From positions 1 through 64,000 of the forward strand of contig JABLTG010000011.1 of NCBI GenBank assembly GCA_016618085.1: 64,000 nt of DNA. Reading direction: 5' to 3'. This DNA is from Neovahlkampfia damariscottae. Taxonomy: Eukaryota; Heterolobosea; Selenaionea; Neovahlkampfiida; Neovahlkampfiidae. The notes beneath the pieces were generated by a model. The model was not told the DNA's origin and searched no databases. It worked only from the letters and a program-made list of their open reading frames with translations. A program made the translations under genes and the position numbers. Positions 1,482 to 59,515 of the stretch are shown piece after piece (the stretch's first letter is position 1; the number at the start of each line of letters is the position of its first letter).

Positions 1482-2633
1482 ATGAGCACAGACGATTTAC
1501 CCTTGTTTGATGATGGACCTAAAGAAGTTGCATTTTCAAAAATAAGAACCGACCTTTTAAACAAGAATACAAACTTAGAAAATATACTTCTTCCATATTT
1601 CGAGGAGTTTGAATACAAAGCAATGGAATTATCAAGTCTTCTTCATAATTACCAAAAAATTTCAAAAGAAAAAGTACAATTCCACAAACACCTTACAAAA
1701 ACTTCCGTTTTGAAGTGGATATTTTTTACAAACAAGTTAGAATTTGCTGGATTAGAAACAGAACAAGACACTGAAGAATGCTTATCCAAAAGTATAGAAG
1801 AGGTAGATGAAGCACCAAAAAAAGAAGTGATTCAAATGTACAGTGCTCTAAAAGAATCATACAAAAGCATTAAAGAACCCATGGAAATTAGTTCTCATCT
1901 TGTGGACATACCTACATTGAAAAAATACCATGGAATTATGCTCAAGGATATTTATGCTTTTAAAGGAAAAGAAGGAAATTTCAGAAAAAGTGGCGCAGAA
2001 TCTTATAATTTAGATAAAACAAAGCACAAATTTTTACATCATGAATTTATTGAATCTCTCATGGAAACTTTATTGGGTCTTGTTTACAAACTTTCCAAAA
2101 ATATTGAAAAAATTGATCAACAAGAGAAAAGAGATGAATTCATTTGCAAAACAGTTGGACTTGCCAGTTTTTTTCAATTTCATTTTGTGGATATTCATCC
2201 ATTTTCAGATGGAAATGGACGTATGTGCAGGCTTTTGAGTAAGATTATTCTTGACTCTATTTTTCCAATTCCAATTCCAATGTTTGAAAATAGAGGAGAC
2301 TATCTAATTTCTTTGATTGAAGGAAGAAAGTTGAATCATCTTCGTGCACCCACAAAACTTGCTTCATTGATATTTGATGTGTCAATTAACTATTATAAGG
2401 GCATATTAAAAAGCATTAAAACACCATTATATATGACACTTGTTTCTACTGATGAAAAAAAATTCGGAGAAAAGGTTGAAATGATTCAATTGGAACAAGA
2501 AATCAAAAAAGAAATCAAAGAAGTATTCAAGAAAATGAAACCAGAAAAAGAACAAATAATTAAAGTTCCATTTCAATTTTATGATGGTATCAATATAGTG
2601 AAATTGATGGAAATTGACTTTGACAGCTTGTAA
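1482..2633 (+). CDS. Fic domain protein (probable AMP-transferase)
   Basis: A 383-residue single-exon protein. The Fic core motif HPFSDGNGRMCR lies at residues 239-250 and fits H-x-F-x-D/E-G-N-G-R-x-x-R exactly, so the catalytic His239 and phosphate-binding Asp/Asn/Arg are present. A class II-type inhibitory helix is visible upstream as T-N-K-L-E-F (83-88): the autoinhibitory Glu87 is kept but the usual following Gly/Asn is Phe. Fic enzymes usually transfer AMP to Ser/Thr/Tyr of a target protein; the target here is unknown. The ATG is embedded in CCAATG at the start, the promoter style of host genes. The gene lies between inverted repeats R2 and R3 and appears to be cargo of the outer transposon. 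Residues 280-383 are a helical C-terminal extension with no recognised domain. Confidence 0.88.
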   Translation: MSTDDLPLFDDGPKEVAFSKIRTDLLNKNTNLENILLPYFEEFEYKAMELSSLLHNYQKISKEKVQFHKHLTKTSVLKWIFFTNKLEFAGLETEQDTEECLSKSIEEVDEAPKKEVIQMYSALKESYKSIKEPMEISSHLVDIPTLKKYHGIMLKDIYAFKGKEGNFRKSGAESYNLDKTKHKFLHHEFIESLMETLLGLVYKLSKNIEKIDQQEKRDEFICKTVGLASFFQFHFVDIHPFSDGNGRMCRLLSKIILDSIFPIPIPMFENRGDYLISLIEGRKLNHLRAPTKLASLIFDVSINYYKGILKSIKTPLYMTLVSTDEKKFGEKVEMIQLEQEIKKEIKEVFKKMKPEKEQIIKVPFQFYDGINIVKLMEIDFDSL

Positions 2634-2964: not shown

Positions 2965-4140
2965 TTATTCTTCAGTTCTTTGCTTCTTTTGGTTATATTT
3001 TTTATTTCTTTCTTGTTGCTTTCTTTTCTTTTCCAATTGTTCGTCCGCATAATTCTTCAAGACCACTTTGTAGTAAATGCCATCTTCATTTCTGAGTGGG
3101 TACTTCATAATGTGATAATTTGTAAGTGCAGCACAGACTTTGAAGACAGTGGAATAAGATTCTTCGTCCCATTTGAATTTTCCTTCCATGATTTTAAATA
3201 ATTTCTTCATTCTCCCATAGAAATTTTCACAAATGATTCGGTTCTTGGCAATTTTCTTGTTTCTTGCATTTTCTTCTCTACTTAAGTCTTTTCCTTTGGA
3301 TGGAAGAATAGCTCTGATCTTTTCACTTGCTCCTTGGTATCCTTTGTCTACAAGTAAAGCCCAGTGTTTTGGATATTTGTCTTTGAGTTCGCCTTGGTCA
3401 TTGACATTCATGTCTAAACCTTTCTTTTCTAAGAATTTTTCGTAAATTTCCAAATTTTCCTTAAAAATACTAAAATCATGAACGGAACCAGCATGAACAT
3501 CACTAATGAAAATAGCAAGTCCATTAGGAAGATGTGCTACTTCTGTTTTGTAGCCATAACTGTGATGTTTTCCAGAGAAATAGTATTGGGCTTCTTTGAA
3601 GGACATCTTAGGTCTAGTTCTGGATTGAAACGTAACATCTACTACAAGTCCAACTTCAGGATAATCTTCTAGTTGAATATTCTTTTTTACTTGCTCATCT
3701 TTATAAACAATTTGAATGAGTTCATTAGACAATGGTTCAACTATTTTTTCCAAAGTATTATGGATGGACAACATGACTCCTGCTCTTTTTACTTTGTAAG
3801 TAACGGCAAATTTATCCCATGACTCATAATGTTTCAACATGACTAAAGTAAAGAAAAAAGAATCTAAAGGTCCAATTTCTGGTTTCTTTCCTCGTTTTCT
3901 CATCTTTAATTTCTTTTCTACAATTGAATAAAGTTCCATAGATTCACTGGTGGTAAAACCAGTCATCACCTTGATGGCTTCACTTCCTTCCTGAGCAAAT
4001 TTTTCATAGTGAATACTTTCTTCTTCTGGTTCCATGTCAGAATCTGAGGAGTATTCTTCTACACTCTTCTTAATTTTCTCTTCTTTGTCCTTTTCAGAGT
4101 TTTTATAGCCATCAAGTATACTCTTGGTAGAACCAGACAT
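2965..4140 (-). CDS. DDE transposase, PIF/Harbinger (DDE_4) type
   Basis: About 391 residues from the ATG at 4140 (the longer frame upstream has no ATG). An N-terminal acidic, Ser-rich region of 50 residues is followed by a helical DNA-binding part and an RNase H-fold catalytic core. Putative catalytic residues, counted from this ATG: Asp168 in VVDVTFQ, Asp265 in LLVDKGYQG and Glu305 in IICENFYGR. The D-x(n)-DKGYQG and E-N-F-x-G-R-M-K pattern is typical of DDE_4/HARBI1 transposases. The C-terminus is Lys/Arg-rich. A CCAAT box lies about 35 bp upstream. The frame is uninterrupted, so the protein may be functional. It sits between arms R3 and R4. PIF/Harbinger elements usually also need a Myb-like partner, which is not seen inside this one. 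Confidence 0.85.
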   Translation of the reverse strand: MSGSTKSILDGYKNSEKDKEEKIKKSVEEYSSDSDMEPEEESIHYEKFAQEGSEAIKVMTGFTTSESMELYSIVEKKLKMRKRGKKPEIGPLDSFFFTLVMLKHYESWDKFAVTYKVKRAGVMLSIHNTLEKIVEPLSNELIQIVYKDEQVKKNIQLEDYPEVGLVVDVTFQSRTRPKMSFKEAQYYFSGKHHSYGYKTEVAHLPNGLAIFISDVHAGSVHDFSIFKENLEIYEKFLEKKGLDMNVNDQGELKDKYPKHWALLVDKGYQGASEKIRAILPSKGKDLSREENARNKKIAKNRIICENFYGRMKKLFKIMEGKFKWDEESYSTVFKVCAALTNYHIMKYPLRNEDGIYYKVVLKNYADEQLEKKRKQQERNKKYNQKKQRTEE

Positions 4141-4399
4141 TGTTGCTAAAGTCAAGCATTTTGTGCCGTTTTTATTGGTTGAGATTCATTGAATAGATGT
4201 GATTCATGTATGTGAATATTTTCAAATAAGTCTGAACTCAATCACTGAAAATTATTGACCTCAAAAAACTTAAAAAAACCGATGACTAGTCGAAATGTAA
4301 ATATGACCTTAACGATGAGAAAGGAAAAATTAAGAATGTTAATGTGTATTTCAAGTTACTTGTCAAATTTGTTGATTTGTTTTGTGAATTTTGATAAAA

Positions 4400-23171: not shown

Positions 23172-24422
23172 TTACAATTCATCTTTTTTATCATCATCGC
23201 TTCCAGCTTCTTGTTTTAATTGTTCAGCTTTTTCTTTAGCGAGTTTAGTTAATTCATCTTCTGAAGATTTTTCTTTTTCAAAGTCTTTAGCTGCTTCTTT
23301 TGCTTTTTCTGCTTCTGCTGCTTTTTTAGCTTCTTCTGCTTTTTTTTCTTCTTCAGCAACTGCCTTGTCTTGTTTATTTTTTTCTAAAATTTCATCTCTT
23401 GCTTTTTTAGCTTCTTCAACTGAATCAGTAACCAAGATGTTGTTGAAAATTGTACCTGATTTAACTTGCCATACATCAATACCAGCAAAAGCTAATTTGT
23501 ATTTTCCAATGGAAGGATCTTCTTTAAAGTCAGGATTTGGAATTTGGTTTGGTTTCCATTCTCCTTTATAAGCAGGATTTGGAATCATTTTTGGTGAGTA
23601 TTCTCCTCTATATTCTGGATTTGTAACTTGAGGTGGTTCCCATTTTCCATCTTCTTCTTCATCCCAATCATCTGGTTTTTTAGCGTTTGGATCTGCAATA
23701 GTTTTTGGTACATCCCAATCTTCTGGTTTTTTATCATTTGGATCAACAATTTCTTTTTCATCAACCCAATCAGCTGGTTTTTTAGCACTTGGATCATCAA
23801 TAGTTTTTGGTGCTAATAAAGGCCAATCTTCTAAAAGAGTTCCACTTTCTTTTTTTTCTCCATCAATTAATACTTCATATGAACCATCAGATTTAATAAT
23901 AGCTGTATAAACATGTGCATTTGTATCTGAAAGAGCACCAACATTGTTTGTTTTTTTCCAATCAACATTTTTTCCATTATAGTTTAAAATTAAATGTACT
24001 TTTTTTGTTGAACCACAAACATCAGGTCCAAACATAATTCCGTATTCTGATGAACCGTCGAAATTTTCTTGGTTTAAACCTTCATAAAGGAATTTAATAT
24101 AACCACCACCACAATCAATATCTTGTTTATAGTTGAGGTTGAATTGTAAAACTAAGTCTTTTCCGTCTGTATTAAAAACTTTTCCAAATTTTGTTGAGAG
24201 ATCATAAAATTTAGCGTCTTGGGATGTTTTGATACCACCAGTTGATGCTTCTTCAAATACTCCAAGTCCTTCTTTTTTTGCTTGAACCCATCTGTCTTTC
24301 CATCCAGCTTTTTCGTAATTTAAATTAATGAAGAATTATTTACCTCCAAAATTTTCTGATAAATAAACTTCAGCAGTACATACTGAAAAAATTATTGCGA
24401 GAACCGCAAGGATAAATCTCAT
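23172..24422 (-). CDS. CALR: Calreticulin, ER chaperone with KDEL
   Basis: Two exons; the first encodes a signal peptide (MRFILAVLAIIFSVCTA) and the intron is about 36 nt near 24308-24343. The N-domain lectin signatures are present (DCGGGYIKFL, FGPDVCG with the conserved Cys pair, LILNYNGKN). The P-domain has three repeats of each type: PKTIDDP/KEIVDPN/PKTIADPN with KKPxDW, and GKWEPPQ/GEYSPKM/GEWKPNQ. The C-domain is acidic and Lys/Ala-rich and ends KDEL for ER retention. It binds Ca2+ and monoglucosylated glycoproteins. Upstream, five CCAAT/ATTGG boxes cluster within 100 bp, unlike the usual one or two. Confidence 0.95.
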
Positions 24423-41858: not shown

Positions 41859-44800
41859 TTAAGGAATGATTTTATTCAACACATTGTTTTCACATTCATA
41901 AGAAATTTGTGAAAAGTATTCATCATTTTCAATTACTTCTTTTGACGGAAATATTTCAATTTCATCACAAAATAATGATGATCTTTTTTGAACAATAATT
42001 TTCTTTTTAATGATTCCATCAAATTCTAATTGATCTAATAATAGATCTAAATCAGAAGGAGAGAGATAAATCATGTGTTCTAATAAATCTTCTCTTCTAA
42101 TACCAGGGTTGAAATAGATTTTTTCAATTAAAGAAATTCTTCTTTCTTCTATTAATTTGAGATTGAATTTTGCTGTTGAAATATTTCTAAATGGATTCAC
42201 AGGAACTGAGTTCTCTTCATCAAATTTAACAATTTTTTTAAATTTTTTTTCTTTTGGTACAGATTCAGAAATTGGTCTTATTTCTGTATTTTCTTGAACT
42301 GTTTCGTCAACTACTTCTTGTTTTTCAATTGAAGATGGTAAAATTTTAAAACATTTTCCAAATAAATTTGAGAAATAGATTTTATCATCAAATGAATTTG
42401 CTTCAAAAATTAAATCAAAATTACAAAGATGTGTCAGCACTTCTTGGATTTTTTCAAAATTTTCATATTTTTTTTTCAATTCTGCTTTTAAAATACCTCT
42501 CTTTTTTGATTCAAGAATTTGTTGATAGATTTCTTTGATTAATTTTAATTCTTCAATTAAATCAGGATTTGAAATTGAATCAAATAAATGTGAAATAAAA
42601 TGAAATAAAGTCAATAGTTCTTCATGATCTTTACAAAATGGCAACAATAATTCTCTTTAAAAGTTAATTCAATTTTTTTTCTCACTTTGTTTGTTCTGTG
42701 ATTTCATCAATTGATTCACCAGTGAAATCTCCTCTGAAATTAAGAACAGGATTTAATTTTGGAATTAAAGTTGGATCAATAACTGGATTAACAGAAATTA
42801 AAATATCTGGAAGTGCAAATCCTTCTTGGTCAGCTTTTCCAGATACAAAATCAACTCCTGTATGTTTGACAGCACCAATTTCTGTTAAATGATTGAGAAC
42901 TGAAACTGAAGAGTCTTGATCATTTGAAGTTGTACTTGTTGTTGGTATGTCATCTTCATTTGTAAAGAATGGTGTGAGTTTGATTTTGTCATTCGAAATC
43001 ATTGTAAGGAATGAAGCGACATTTCCTGAATCAAATTCATTACTTGCAGGGTCTATATCAAAACCATAAAATAATGAATCTGAAGGAGTTGTTGAGTGGA
43101 TGTTCACTTTTTCAACTTTTTCATTGAATGATTTTATTCCTGCTTGCATATTTTTGAGAAGATCAGGAACTGAATGAGAATAATTTTGTGATGTTTTAAC
43201 TTTAATCCCTTTTAATCGTTGTTCACCATGAAGTCTTGATTTCACTAATGGATCTTTTGATCTGTTTCTTGAAAGATATCCATGTTTCTTCAATTTTTCA
43301 ATAGTCTGTTGAATTTCAAGTGGGACAAACGCAGAAAAAGCTGTATGAGCAGCTTCTATTGAATATTCATCAGATGCTGAGAGATCAATTGATTTAATAA
43401 AATCATAAATCAAAGATTCTTTTGGATTTAATTTCAACTCTGTTTTTTGACCTTCTAAAGTATGAGTAATATATTTTTCATTGAATTCTTTTAAGGTTTT
43501 TGGCAACTGTATTTTAATGACATTGTCTTCATTTAGTATGTTTGATTCTGTTAATATTTTATGTATATCAATTTCAGATTCCACTTCTTTTTGCTCGAGA
43601 ACGAATTCAATGACTGGTCTGATGTATGAATATTTGATTAAATGTCTCCATCGAGAATAACAATTCTTTTTGGATTTTTCTGGGAAGTTTTCCGAAATTC
43701 TTGCCCAATCCACCATTGAATAATCAAAAACTCCTCTTTCATTCTTTTTGAGTTTTGAAGCTGTTAATTCCAATAATTTTATGTCTTCTTCTGGTTTCCA
43801 TGATTTTCTACGAATAATTTCTTCTTCATCTTCTTTTTCATCTTCTTCAATTTCCATTACATCATTGACATCAGTTGGAGGTACAGGTGTTGGAGATTCA
43901 GTCATATCTTTTGACTTTTCCTTCTGATCTGTTTTCTTTTTTTTTGTTGATGATTCAGAGAGTACTATTTTTCTTTTTGCTTCATGAATTGGGTAGTGTT
44001 CATGATATCTGAAGAAAAATAAAACAATTGTGTCAAATGGAACTCTTAATTTCTTTCTGAGTTCAAGACATTTTTCACAACTAGGAAGAGGATCTTTTTC
44101 ACGATATTCATGTAACATTTTGATTTGATTTTTACTGAGCTTTCGAATTTCAGACCAATGAATTGGATCTGAAAGATCAATATCTGGAAGAAGTTTATCT
44201 AAAACATCTTTTTTATAGGTTAGCGAGACATCTTGTTCATCCTCTTTTGGTTTCACCAAAAAATCAACACCAGTCTTTCCAATGCAATAATCTTTAAATT
44301 CATTCCAAAAAATTTCAACATCATCAACAGAAGAAAAGGAAAATGTTTTTTGAGAAACATCGTCTTTAAGTGTATATCCTTTTGATAATGTTAAAATCTC
44401 TTTGTTTTCAGATACTCTAAGGAGCTGCAGTTTTTCTAAAGTCAGAATAAAGTCATCAAATCTTGGCAATACAACATTGGTTCTAATTTGAGTTGAGAAC
44501 AAAATATTTCCAATCTCAGGATTCATATCATTAATTTTTGTGTGTAAATGATTTTTTAAATTAGGTACTTCATTTCCACATCCAATAATTCTAAGATAGG
44601 AGTCAATTGTCATGTTGGCAAAAATATCAGATCTATTAAAACTGAATACTTCATTGCTCATACATTGGGAAGATAATGCCCATAACATTTTGTGAAATTC
44701 TTTAACTCTAGACATTTTAGCAATTAAGTAACCATATCTCAAAGAGATATATTCAATTTTTCCACTTGGAGATACTGTGGTTCTAGTTCTACCAATCGGT

Positions 44801-46555
44801 TCAGTATCCAAATGATTGATTGTAAATCCTTTTGAAACTGGAAGTGTGTTGTTTGTTTTCTTTTTTAATTCCGAATTTCTTAATGAAGTTACAAATCCAG
44901 AAATTTCTTCACTTTCTGCAGAATTATCAACATCAGGAAGGATAATGCATCTGATTTCTTTTTCACCTACACGAAATGATGGATAAGACAGCAAAATATC
45001 TTTCAATTTGCCTTCCTCTTCAAGATATTTGACAACTCTGTCTCTAGTTTTTGAATCTTCAATTCCGACATCTCTCCTGATATCAGTGATGGATAAAATT
45101 TTTCTTTCAGTGAGAATTTCCATCATCTTATCGGCTCTTTCATAAAACTTCTCAGAATATTTAACTTTCTTTTCAAACTTTTTGTTGGCATCTGTTTGAG
45201 ATTTTCCAACTGAAAATATATTTACACGAGAAGAATCCGCTGATGAAGGAGAAGTTGAAACTTCACCAGAAAATGTTTTCTTTGGACTTTCATTAATTGT
45301 TAAATTCAATCCTCCAACTTCTTCTTCTTCTTCTTCTTCAGATGTTACGTATTCAATTTCTTCTTCTTCATCATTTTTTTGTTTTCTGACTTTTTTTTTT
45401 CCATGCTTTTGTGGAAAAGTCACAAAAATATGTTTTTCAGATGTATTAACTTTAAGTCCAAGTTTCTCTGCATCAGCACATAATTTTGAGCTTATTTTTT
45501 GTGAGATTCCAAATTTACCATAAATTTGTTTGTGAGTCAATCCATTTTCACTCTCAGCAACAGCATGATAGATTTGATAAACAATTGGAACTTCTTGGAC
45601 ATAACCAACTTCCTCCACTTCTTCATCTTCTTCTTCTTCACCCTCTTTTTGGATCCATTTCAATCCTCTTTTTGATTTATTCTTATCATCACTATCTTCA
45701 ATGACAATTTGTTCCACGTTTCCAGTTTTACATAATTCATTCTTAATTCCTTCCCATCTACTACGTCCTAATTTTGTTGCTGGAACTTGAAATTGAGATT
45801 TCAATTCTACTTCAAGTAAGACTTCTTTTGGATTTTTTTTAAACATTTCTAAAATTTTTTCAATTGTTTCTTCTTTGAATTGATGAACTTTTTCAACTTC
45901 AGTTTTTTCTGGATCTAAAGGCTGAAACTTCACCAACCAAGTGCTTTCAAGATGTTAATAAAATTGGATTTTTCTTACATTTTTGTTGTAACTTTATTGA
46001 TTAGAGCACTTCTTGTTGGAGTGATCAAATTTTTTCCGATTAATTTTTTTAAATGATAGTTCATATTTCTTGGATCAATAGAGAGAACTTTTCCAAGTAT
46101 ATTTTGATAAGAAGGTTCATATCTGTGTTTTCCAATTTCTAAATTTTAATTTTGAAAAAAAAGGTACCTTCTAAAAGTCCATATTGAATATCGGACAAAA
46201 GATTACGAACAGCCTCTGATATACCAAGTGAACTAAGTCTCATTTCGTAACTTGTAACCAGTATAATTTTTTCATTGAAGGAAAGTTCGTTTTTCTCTAA
46301 TTTAACTCTATTTGGAAATTTTAAAACTCCTTCTTTCGTGAATTTCAATTCACCTATTTCATTTTCTGGGTATGGTTCATACATAGTTACATCGTTTTCA
46401 TCTTTCAATAACGAAAATATTTTTTTTTTTAAGAAATCATCAAAAGAAAAATTTGAATATTTTCCAACGATAATATCATACATTTCAGAGAAAGTACATC
46501 CATTATATCCAAAAAGCGAAATTTCTTGAAGACAACTTTGAAAAATAACGTCCAT
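41859..46555 (-). CDS. GTF3C1: TFIIIC largest subunit (GTF3C1/tau138 homologue)
   Basis: Four to five exons from the ATG at 46555 to 41859, with introns near 46140-46166, 45945-45978 and 42656-42686; roughly 1,520 residues. The N-terminal winged helix (CLQEISLFGYNGCTFSEMYD) is characteristic of TFIIIC220. Further winged-helix/B-block modules follow, one at VYQIYHAVAESENGLTHKQI. A SANT/Myb-like domain (KSWKPEEDIKLLEL ... WARISENFPEKSK) is present, as in plant homologues. Long acidic and Lys-rich linkers separate the domains. TFIIIC binds the B-box of tRNA genes and recruits TFIIIB (BRF1 lies at 19.6 kb). The 42682-45936 exon alone codes for more than 1,000 residues. Confidence 0.85.
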
Positions 46556-57569: not shown

Positions 57570-58030
57570 ATGAAGAAGATTTTTTTGTTTGTACTTTTGG
57601 TACTTTTTCAAGTTTTTTCTTTTTCAGAAACCAAATGTATTGGCTTTAATACAGATACTCTAATGTGTCATACATGCGAAAAAATGAAAAATTTCATCAA
57701 ACAAACTAAGTTTTTAAACAATTGTAAAGAATGTTGTATCCAAGAAAAGTCAACTGTATCAAAATATTCATCTGCTAAAATTGAAATATGTTCATGAAAA
57801 ATGGGAGGTTTTCCTGAAATCAAAAACTTTATTGATCAAAATTCAAAAAATTTTAAAAATTTGAAAGTTAGTTTTTATCTTCTAATTTTGTTACATGATA
57901 GGTCAATTATGTTTCAGGTTCACCTCCAAAATTATTCATGAAAAATGGAAAACAAGAAGATTTTATTGATATTCAACAATGGAAAAATGAACAAATTTCT
58001 GAATTTTTAAAACAAAAATTGGATGATTAA
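57570..58030 (+). CDS. SELENOF: 15-kDa selenoprotein SELENOF (UGA = Sec76)
   Basis: 141 residues counting the UGA at 57795-57797 as selenocysteine. Signal peptide MKKIFLFVLLVLFQVFS. A Cys-rich domain (CIGF, LMCHTCEKM, NNCKECC) matches the UGGT-binding region of Sep15. The redox motif is I-C-S-U-K-M-G-G-F-P, aligning with C-G-U-K-L-G-R-F-P of vertebrate SELENOF. An intron of 35 nt at 57867-57901 (GTTAG...ATAG) leads to VNYVSGSPPKLF, QWKNEQISEFL and a stop at 58030. Coding quality is equal on both sides of the UGA, and the homologous domain spans it. A SECIS hairpin follows at 58065-58110. ATTGG 57559-57563. It acts in glycoprotein folding in the ER. Confidence 0.92.
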
Positions 58031-58064
58031 GTCACACCATCAAAAACTCATTTTTTTTCAGTGA

Positions 58065-58110
58065 ATGAATTTCTTTTGATAATTACAAAAAAGTAACCAA
58101 AATAAAATGA
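58065..58110 (+). promoter_or_regulatory. SECIS element (type II) of SELENOF
   Basis: In the 3' UTR, 35 nt after the stop. 5' quartet strand ATGA at 58065-58068, 12-nt helix strand, unpaired AA at 58081-58082, mini-stem TTAC (58083-58086) with loop AAAAAA and GTAA (58093-58096), CC, A-rich return strand, and TGA at 58108-58110. The helix pairs the T-rich 58070-58078 with the A-rich 58097-58107. ATGA-N12-AA spacing and the extra apical stem match form 2 eukaryotic SECIS elements. Confidence 0.8.
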
Positions 58111-58143
58111 AAATTGAAAAAAAAAAAGATTTTGAAAGAACTT

Positions 58144-58299
58144 TTATTTTTCTCCAGTAAATTCTTTACATAATTCTTCAAAAATTTGAACTTGATTTTT
58201 AAATTTTATACAAATCAAATATCTTTCTTTTTTCAATTGAGAGTCAATCTTCGAACTACAACTTGTTCTTTGTTGAGATAGTTCTGATTTTGAGCACAT
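58144..58299 (-). CDS. Small 51-residue Cys-containing frame
   Basis: ATG at 58299 to TAA at 58144: MCSKSELSQQRTSC, then a Lys-rich helix and FEELCKEFTGEK. The compact helical look and four Cys suggest a small mitochondrial or assembly-factor-like protein, but the Cys spacing fits no known twin-CxnC family. An upstream exon could exist (coding-like sequence precedes the ATG). Convergent with SELENOF, divergent to the SEC63-like gene. Confidence 0.4.
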   Translation of the reverse strand: MCSKSELSQQRTSCSSKIDSQLKKERYLICIKFKNQVQIFEELCKEFTGEK

Positions 58300-58454: not shown

Positions 58455-59515
58455 ATGGGTTTGCAAGGAACAGTAGCAGTTTTAGGATTAAAATTATTTT
58501 CACTGTTTTATTCACCTTACAAAGTGATCAAAAGAAATGATACTTTAAAATATTCATCCATCGCAGGCTTGGTTGTATTATTCTTAGTTTTATTTCTTTT
58601 ACCAGGAGGCAGTGTTGATAACCTTTCACCATATGCAGTTTTAGATGTAACTAAAGAAAATACAAAAAAAGAAATTTCAAGAAAATACAGAAAACTTTCT
58701 TTGTTATATCATCCAGATAAAAATAAAAATGACGCTGAAGCAAATAAAAAATATATTCAAGTACAAAAAGCTTATGAAATGTAACCTTGAAAATATTTCT
58801 AAACCACTCATTTTATAAAAGTATTTCGGACCCAAAAAAACTTGAAAATTTGGAAAAGTATGGAAATCCTGAAGGTCCAGATAGTTCATTCTATGAGGAT
58901 AAATATCCAGAATTTATTTTAAAACCATCCAAAAAAGTAACTTTTTTTAACAAAATTTTAATATTTTTCATTGGCAGTTTGTTTATTTTTATTTATTTTT
59001 GATTTTTGGATTCATGTTACTTCCAATTGCTTTATTTGTTATTCCATGCCTTAAAAGTCCACCTTCTGTTAGTTTTTTTGATTTCTATTTATTTTTTTTT
59101 AAAGTGGGTTCGTCAAGACATTGATGAAGAAATTCAAGTTGGAATTGATCTTTTGGTAAAACATGATGAAAGAGCACTTTCACATTTTTCAAATGCAGAA
59201 CAAAAATGGTTAGATTTAGTAAAAGCATTTCCAAGATATGAAAAATCACCTTATTGTGCTATTTATATTTTCAAAATCGCATGTAGAAGCGCACAATTTC
59301 TTTTAGTTCATGATAAAGTAGATGAAGCAATTCAAAAAATTAAAGAATCAAGAAAACAATTTAGCAAAGATGTACTTAGATCAAGAGAAACACAAAATAT
59401 TATTGTTCCAATTATTGATGATGTTATTGAAACAATCAATTCATGTGGTTTGAAACAATCAAAAGCGATTGCAGCAAAAGAATCAGTTTTAGCATTCAAA
59501 ACAAAAGGAAAATAA
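58455..59515 (+). CDS. SEC63-like ER J-domain protein lacking Brl
   Basis: Four exons with introns near 58782-58822, 58938-58978 and 59070-59106. Residues 1-60 contain a hydrophobic helix ([19 protein letters not shown]); the J domain follows with YHPDKNKND (HPD) and EIISDPKKLENLEKYGNPEGP, the Asn-Pro-x-Gly-Pro step typical of SEC63. A further transmembrane segment (FVYFYLFLIFGFMLLPIALF) follows the J domain, as in SEC63. After that come only about 140 mostly helical residues (AEQKWLDLVKAFPRYEKSP) and no Brl/Sec63 domain. ATG at 58455, ATTGG at 58424-58428. About 315 residues. Could be a short SEC63 or an ERdj-type relative. Confidence 0.7.

Follow-up and report, generated by a model that had tools for sequence, protein, structure and literature searches.

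A SELENOF (Sep15) homologue with an in-frame UGA codon and a type II SECIS-like element in an AT-rich microbial eukaryote

Does the TGA codon that interrupts a two-exon reading frame at 57570-58030 terminate the protein, or is it read as selenocysteine (Sec)? We examined this question in a single stretch of DNA of 64 kb (the window; G + C content, 27.8%). The source is an AT-rich microbial eukaryote. The gene is very likely its SELENOF (Sep15) orthologue, with a UGA that would be read as Sec by means of a type II SECIS.

Gene structure and family identity

The frame starts with ATG at 57570 and closes with TAA at 58028-58030, giving a product of 141 residues in which the UGA would place Sec at position 76. 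Exon 1 (57570-57866, plus strand) encodes a hydrophobic N terminus that is probably a signal peptide (MKKIFLFVLLVLFQVFSFS, signal-peptide-like as judged by eye), a six-Cys domain, and the first half of a thioredoxin-like domain with the C-S-U motif. The sole in-frame stop in this exon is TGA at 57795-57797, in the residue context E-I-C-S-U-K-M-G-G-F-P, and the redox motif Cys74-Ser75-Sec76 (57789-57797, plus strand) is matched in alignments by CGU in human SELENOF and by CTC in fly Sep15. A phase-0 GT-AG intron of 35 nt (57867-57901, plus strand; GTTAGT...GATAG with an internal CTAAT) joins NFKNLK to the conserved VNYVSGSPPKLF and, as had been predicted, is in register, keeping the frame without extra stops through exon 2 (57902-58030, plus strand). 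Among the acceptors tried, only the one at 57901 was both in frame and free of an additional stop. The protein ends in KLDD, with no KDEL.

When Cys was substituted for Sec, the 141-residue protein matched PF08806 (Sep15_SelM) with an E-value of 1.9e-20 and a score of 73 bits (cut-off, 26), and the matched domain spans the UGA. The portion beyond the UGA (65 residues) is recognized as part of this family even when searched alone (E = 5.3e-17); the sequence 3' of the codon is therefore real coding sequence under family constraint, which agrees with the earlier claim that coding continues past it. The closest solved structure was fly Sep15 (2a4h, E = 2.9e-10), followed by mouse SelM (2a2p, E = 0.01). 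In the alignment to 2a4h, the UGA (U76) falls opposite a redox Cys, the second one in the fly motif CTC, and this places the UGA at the Sec position of Sep15 (C-S-U-K) as originally proposed. Human SELENOF is 31% identical in a pairwise alignment that covers nearly the full length, and each of the six cysteines in the N-terminal Cys-rich domain, which is of the UGGT-binding type, has an aligned counterpart in the human protein. The comparison used what we take to be the human SELENOF sequence; its length, C94, U96, and I140-A141 were cross-checked, and the residues agree with PMC9304195. Since Cys and Sec are separated by one residue (CXU, not the CXXU of SELENOM) and the six-Cys domain is present, we assigned the gene to SELENOF. 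SELENOM was considered and rejected on these two grounds and on the far weaker match to 2a2p. The family named in the original prediction therefore stands, on the PF08806 match, the top-ranked fly structure, and the CXU spacing. A search of viral and prokaryote contig collections with a two-sequence alignment found no relative for a conservation test.

The residue in the middle of the motif is Ser here, Gly in human SELENOF, and Thr in fly Sep15. Presenting CSU as a departure from the usual CGU was an overstatement, because the family motif is written CXU and CTC occurs in the fly homologue (PMC9304195). With Gly and Thr already on record at this position, CSU amounts to a minor variant of CXU. 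Non-Sec homologues in algae and plants carry CMR or DQW (PMC7539508), and a narrow search of the literature on motif variants returned no mention of CSU in SELENOF.

A SECIS-like element downstream of the stop codon

The 3' UTR contains a type II SECIS-like element at 58047-58128 (plus strand). Helix I consists of 12 bp (58051-58062 with 58113-58124), and the core is formed by ATGA at 58065-58068 and TGA at 58108-58110. ATGA is followed by N12 and an unpaired AA (58081-58082), and above these an apical mini-stem of 4 bp pairs TTAC (58083-58086) with GTAA (58093-58096) around a 6-nt loop. The candidate thus has the type II features of an ATGA/NGA core, 11-13 nt to an unpaired AA, an apical mini-stem, and helices I and II, and an energy model predicts both helices, with a 2x2 mismatch in helix II, as well as the mini-stem. 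The gap between the stop codon and the ATGA core is 34 nt, and in the mRNA the UGA precedes the core by 232 nt, a distance compatible with known Sec genes. A possible small gene on the minus strand (58144-58299), whose translation ends in FKNQVQIFEELCKEFTGEK before its stop, terminates about 16 nt beyond the SECIS, and the 3' UTRs of the two genes therefore probably overlap.

In searches with two pairing descriptors, 58047-58128 was the best-scoring site on both strands of the 64 kb, so that a type II SECIS downstream of the stop, with ATGA-N12-AA, the TTAC/GTAA stem, and TGA, was recovered as predicted. A narrower type II descriptor, which is post hoc in that it was set once the candidate was known, had this site as its sole match on both strands of the 64 kb. 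In shuffled versions of the window it matched 8 sites over 960 kb, and when the 150-nt UTR was shuffled by dinucleotides, 4 of 20,000 versions gave a hit. With looser generic descriptors, the candidate again ranked first in the window, and 5 to 124 out of 3,000 shuffled sequences of 200 nt gave a match (0.2-4%). Folding energy was not distinctive: the UTR had a z-score of -1.2 relative to shuffles, and a SECIS scan ranked by energy, which did not discriminate in this AT-rich sequence, placed the candidate 10th of 32. A covariance search, the check that the original prediction had put forward, gave no support, as no SECIS model of Rfam 15 matched at the gathering threshold or at loose E-values (up to 10 on 86 nt); this is a weak negative, given that the models derive from few sequences, that the element is very AT-rich, and that a model match is not a defining feature of a SECIS. 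Because Rfam does not recognize the element, its assignment rests on descriptor, fold, and position.

The meaning of the in-frame UGA

With a UGA at a known Sec position and a type II SECIS-like hairpin after the stop, the organism probably uses selenium in this ER protein, in common with animals, algae, and slime moulds. The original prediction went further and took the gene to show a working Sec system. Such a system is very likely from one gene with a SECIS, but "shows" was too strong a word. Neither tRNA-Sec nor a tRNA of any other kind was found in the 64-kb window. Sep15 has been described in its Sec-containing form in animals, algae, and Dictyostelium (PMC2375036; PMC7539508). Selenophosphate synthetases, whose presence marks Sec use, have a scattered distribution among protists, Naegleria being one of those that carry them (PMC4561486). 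We consider it rather unlikely that Sec use is unreported in the eukaryotic lineage of this organism and that the AT-rich SECIS, with the 2x2 mismatch in helix II, is divergent enough to escape standard models.

The TGA might instead reflect an error in sequencing or assembly, the true codon being TGT or TGC and the gene a Cys homologue with CSC. A single substitution would be enough, and Cys homologues of SELENOF do exist, as the fly CTC shows. However, the error would have had to strike the one codon known as Sec, and the SECIS-like element behind the stop would then be a coincidence, with a chance of about 2e-4 to 4e-2 by shuffles; we regard an error as very improbable. No more probable is a reading of the UGA as an ordinary amino acid such as Trp, by reassignment or readthrough and without selenium. 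UGA is reassigned in some protists, but Trp is encoded by TGG in the long frames of the window (89 codons), and at least one other long ORF (42682-45936, minus strand) closes with UGA and could not plausibly be continued past it. Wholesale recoding is therefore unlikely, and the organism most likely uses UGA as a normal stop. The UGA considered here coincides with the Sec position exactly and is followed by a SECIS-like element.

Two further readings take the codon as a stop or remove it from the message. Without Sec machinery, the UGA would halt translation, so that the gene would be decaying or yield only a truncated product of 75 residues; against this, the downstream part is well conserved and the frame, intron, and stop are intact, and we give this reading very little credence. 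Slightly less probable still is an additional in-frame GT-AG splice that removes the UGA. Six such cassettes, 18-171 nt long, are possible around the codon, but all six end at 57807 and would delete the conserved redox motif. At 18 nt, the shortest would be half as long as the intron of this gene, and each of the longer ones would also take out the conserved strand that precedes the motif, in most cases together with N-domain cysteines. Decoding of the UGA as Sec remains the reading that we prefer.

Proposed function and comparison with known systems

In eukaryotes, Sec insertion at UGA depends on SBP2, EFSec, and Sec-tRNA. For the present gene, we infer that splicing of the single 35-nt intron would yield an mRNA with the in-frame UGA about 230 nt upstream of the type II SECIS, that SBP2 would bind the SECIS core and recruit EFSec and Sec-tRNA, and that the UGA would be read as Sec to create the C-S-U redox site. 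The protein would probably enter the ER. Known SELENOF resides there, bound to UGGT via its Cys-rich domain, and has a redox-active CXU (PMC6266307; PMC9304195). The six-Cys domain would probably bind the folding sensor UGGT, and the protein would probably act on the disulphides of misfolded glycoproteins.

The window also encodes a calreticulin with a KDEL end (23172-24035, minus strand; PF00262, E = 1.2e-51), which belongs to the partner pathway of SELENOF-UGGT and is consistent with the calnexin/calreticulin cycle in which UGGT works. Directly downstream of SELENOF lies a gene for a DnaJ-domain membrane protein resembling Sec63 (58455-59515, plus strand; DnaJ, E = 1e-19), apparently with short introns. 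Elsewhere in the window are a Fic-domain protein (1482-2633, plus strand; PF02661, E = 1.8e-12) and a long open frame for a DDE_Tnp_4 (Harbinger-type) transposase (2965-4155, minus strand).

The locus contributes a well-formed selenoprotein gene from an AT-rich protist. A standard annotation would probably end SELENOF prematurely at the UGA, and its SECIS-like element is missed by the Rfam SECIS models. The gene implies tRNA-Sec and insertion factors elsewhere in the genome. Knowledge of SELENOF and of Sec decoding is unchanged, as the family is already known and only the gene is new to it.

With the known members of the family (human SELENOF, fly 2a4h, and Dictyostelium Sep15), the protein shares the Sep15_SelM domain, the CXU spacing, the six-Cys domain, and a hydrophobic N terminus. 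With SELENOM (mouse 2a2p), it has the thioredoxin-like domain family in common, whereas SELENOM carries CXXU and lacks the six-Cys domain (PMC9304195). The Sep15 gene of D. discoideum likewise encodes a Sec form and has a type II SECIS, the type to which all Dictyostelium SECIS elements belong, but the UGUA reported before the SECIS core in Dictyostelium is absent here (PMC2375036).
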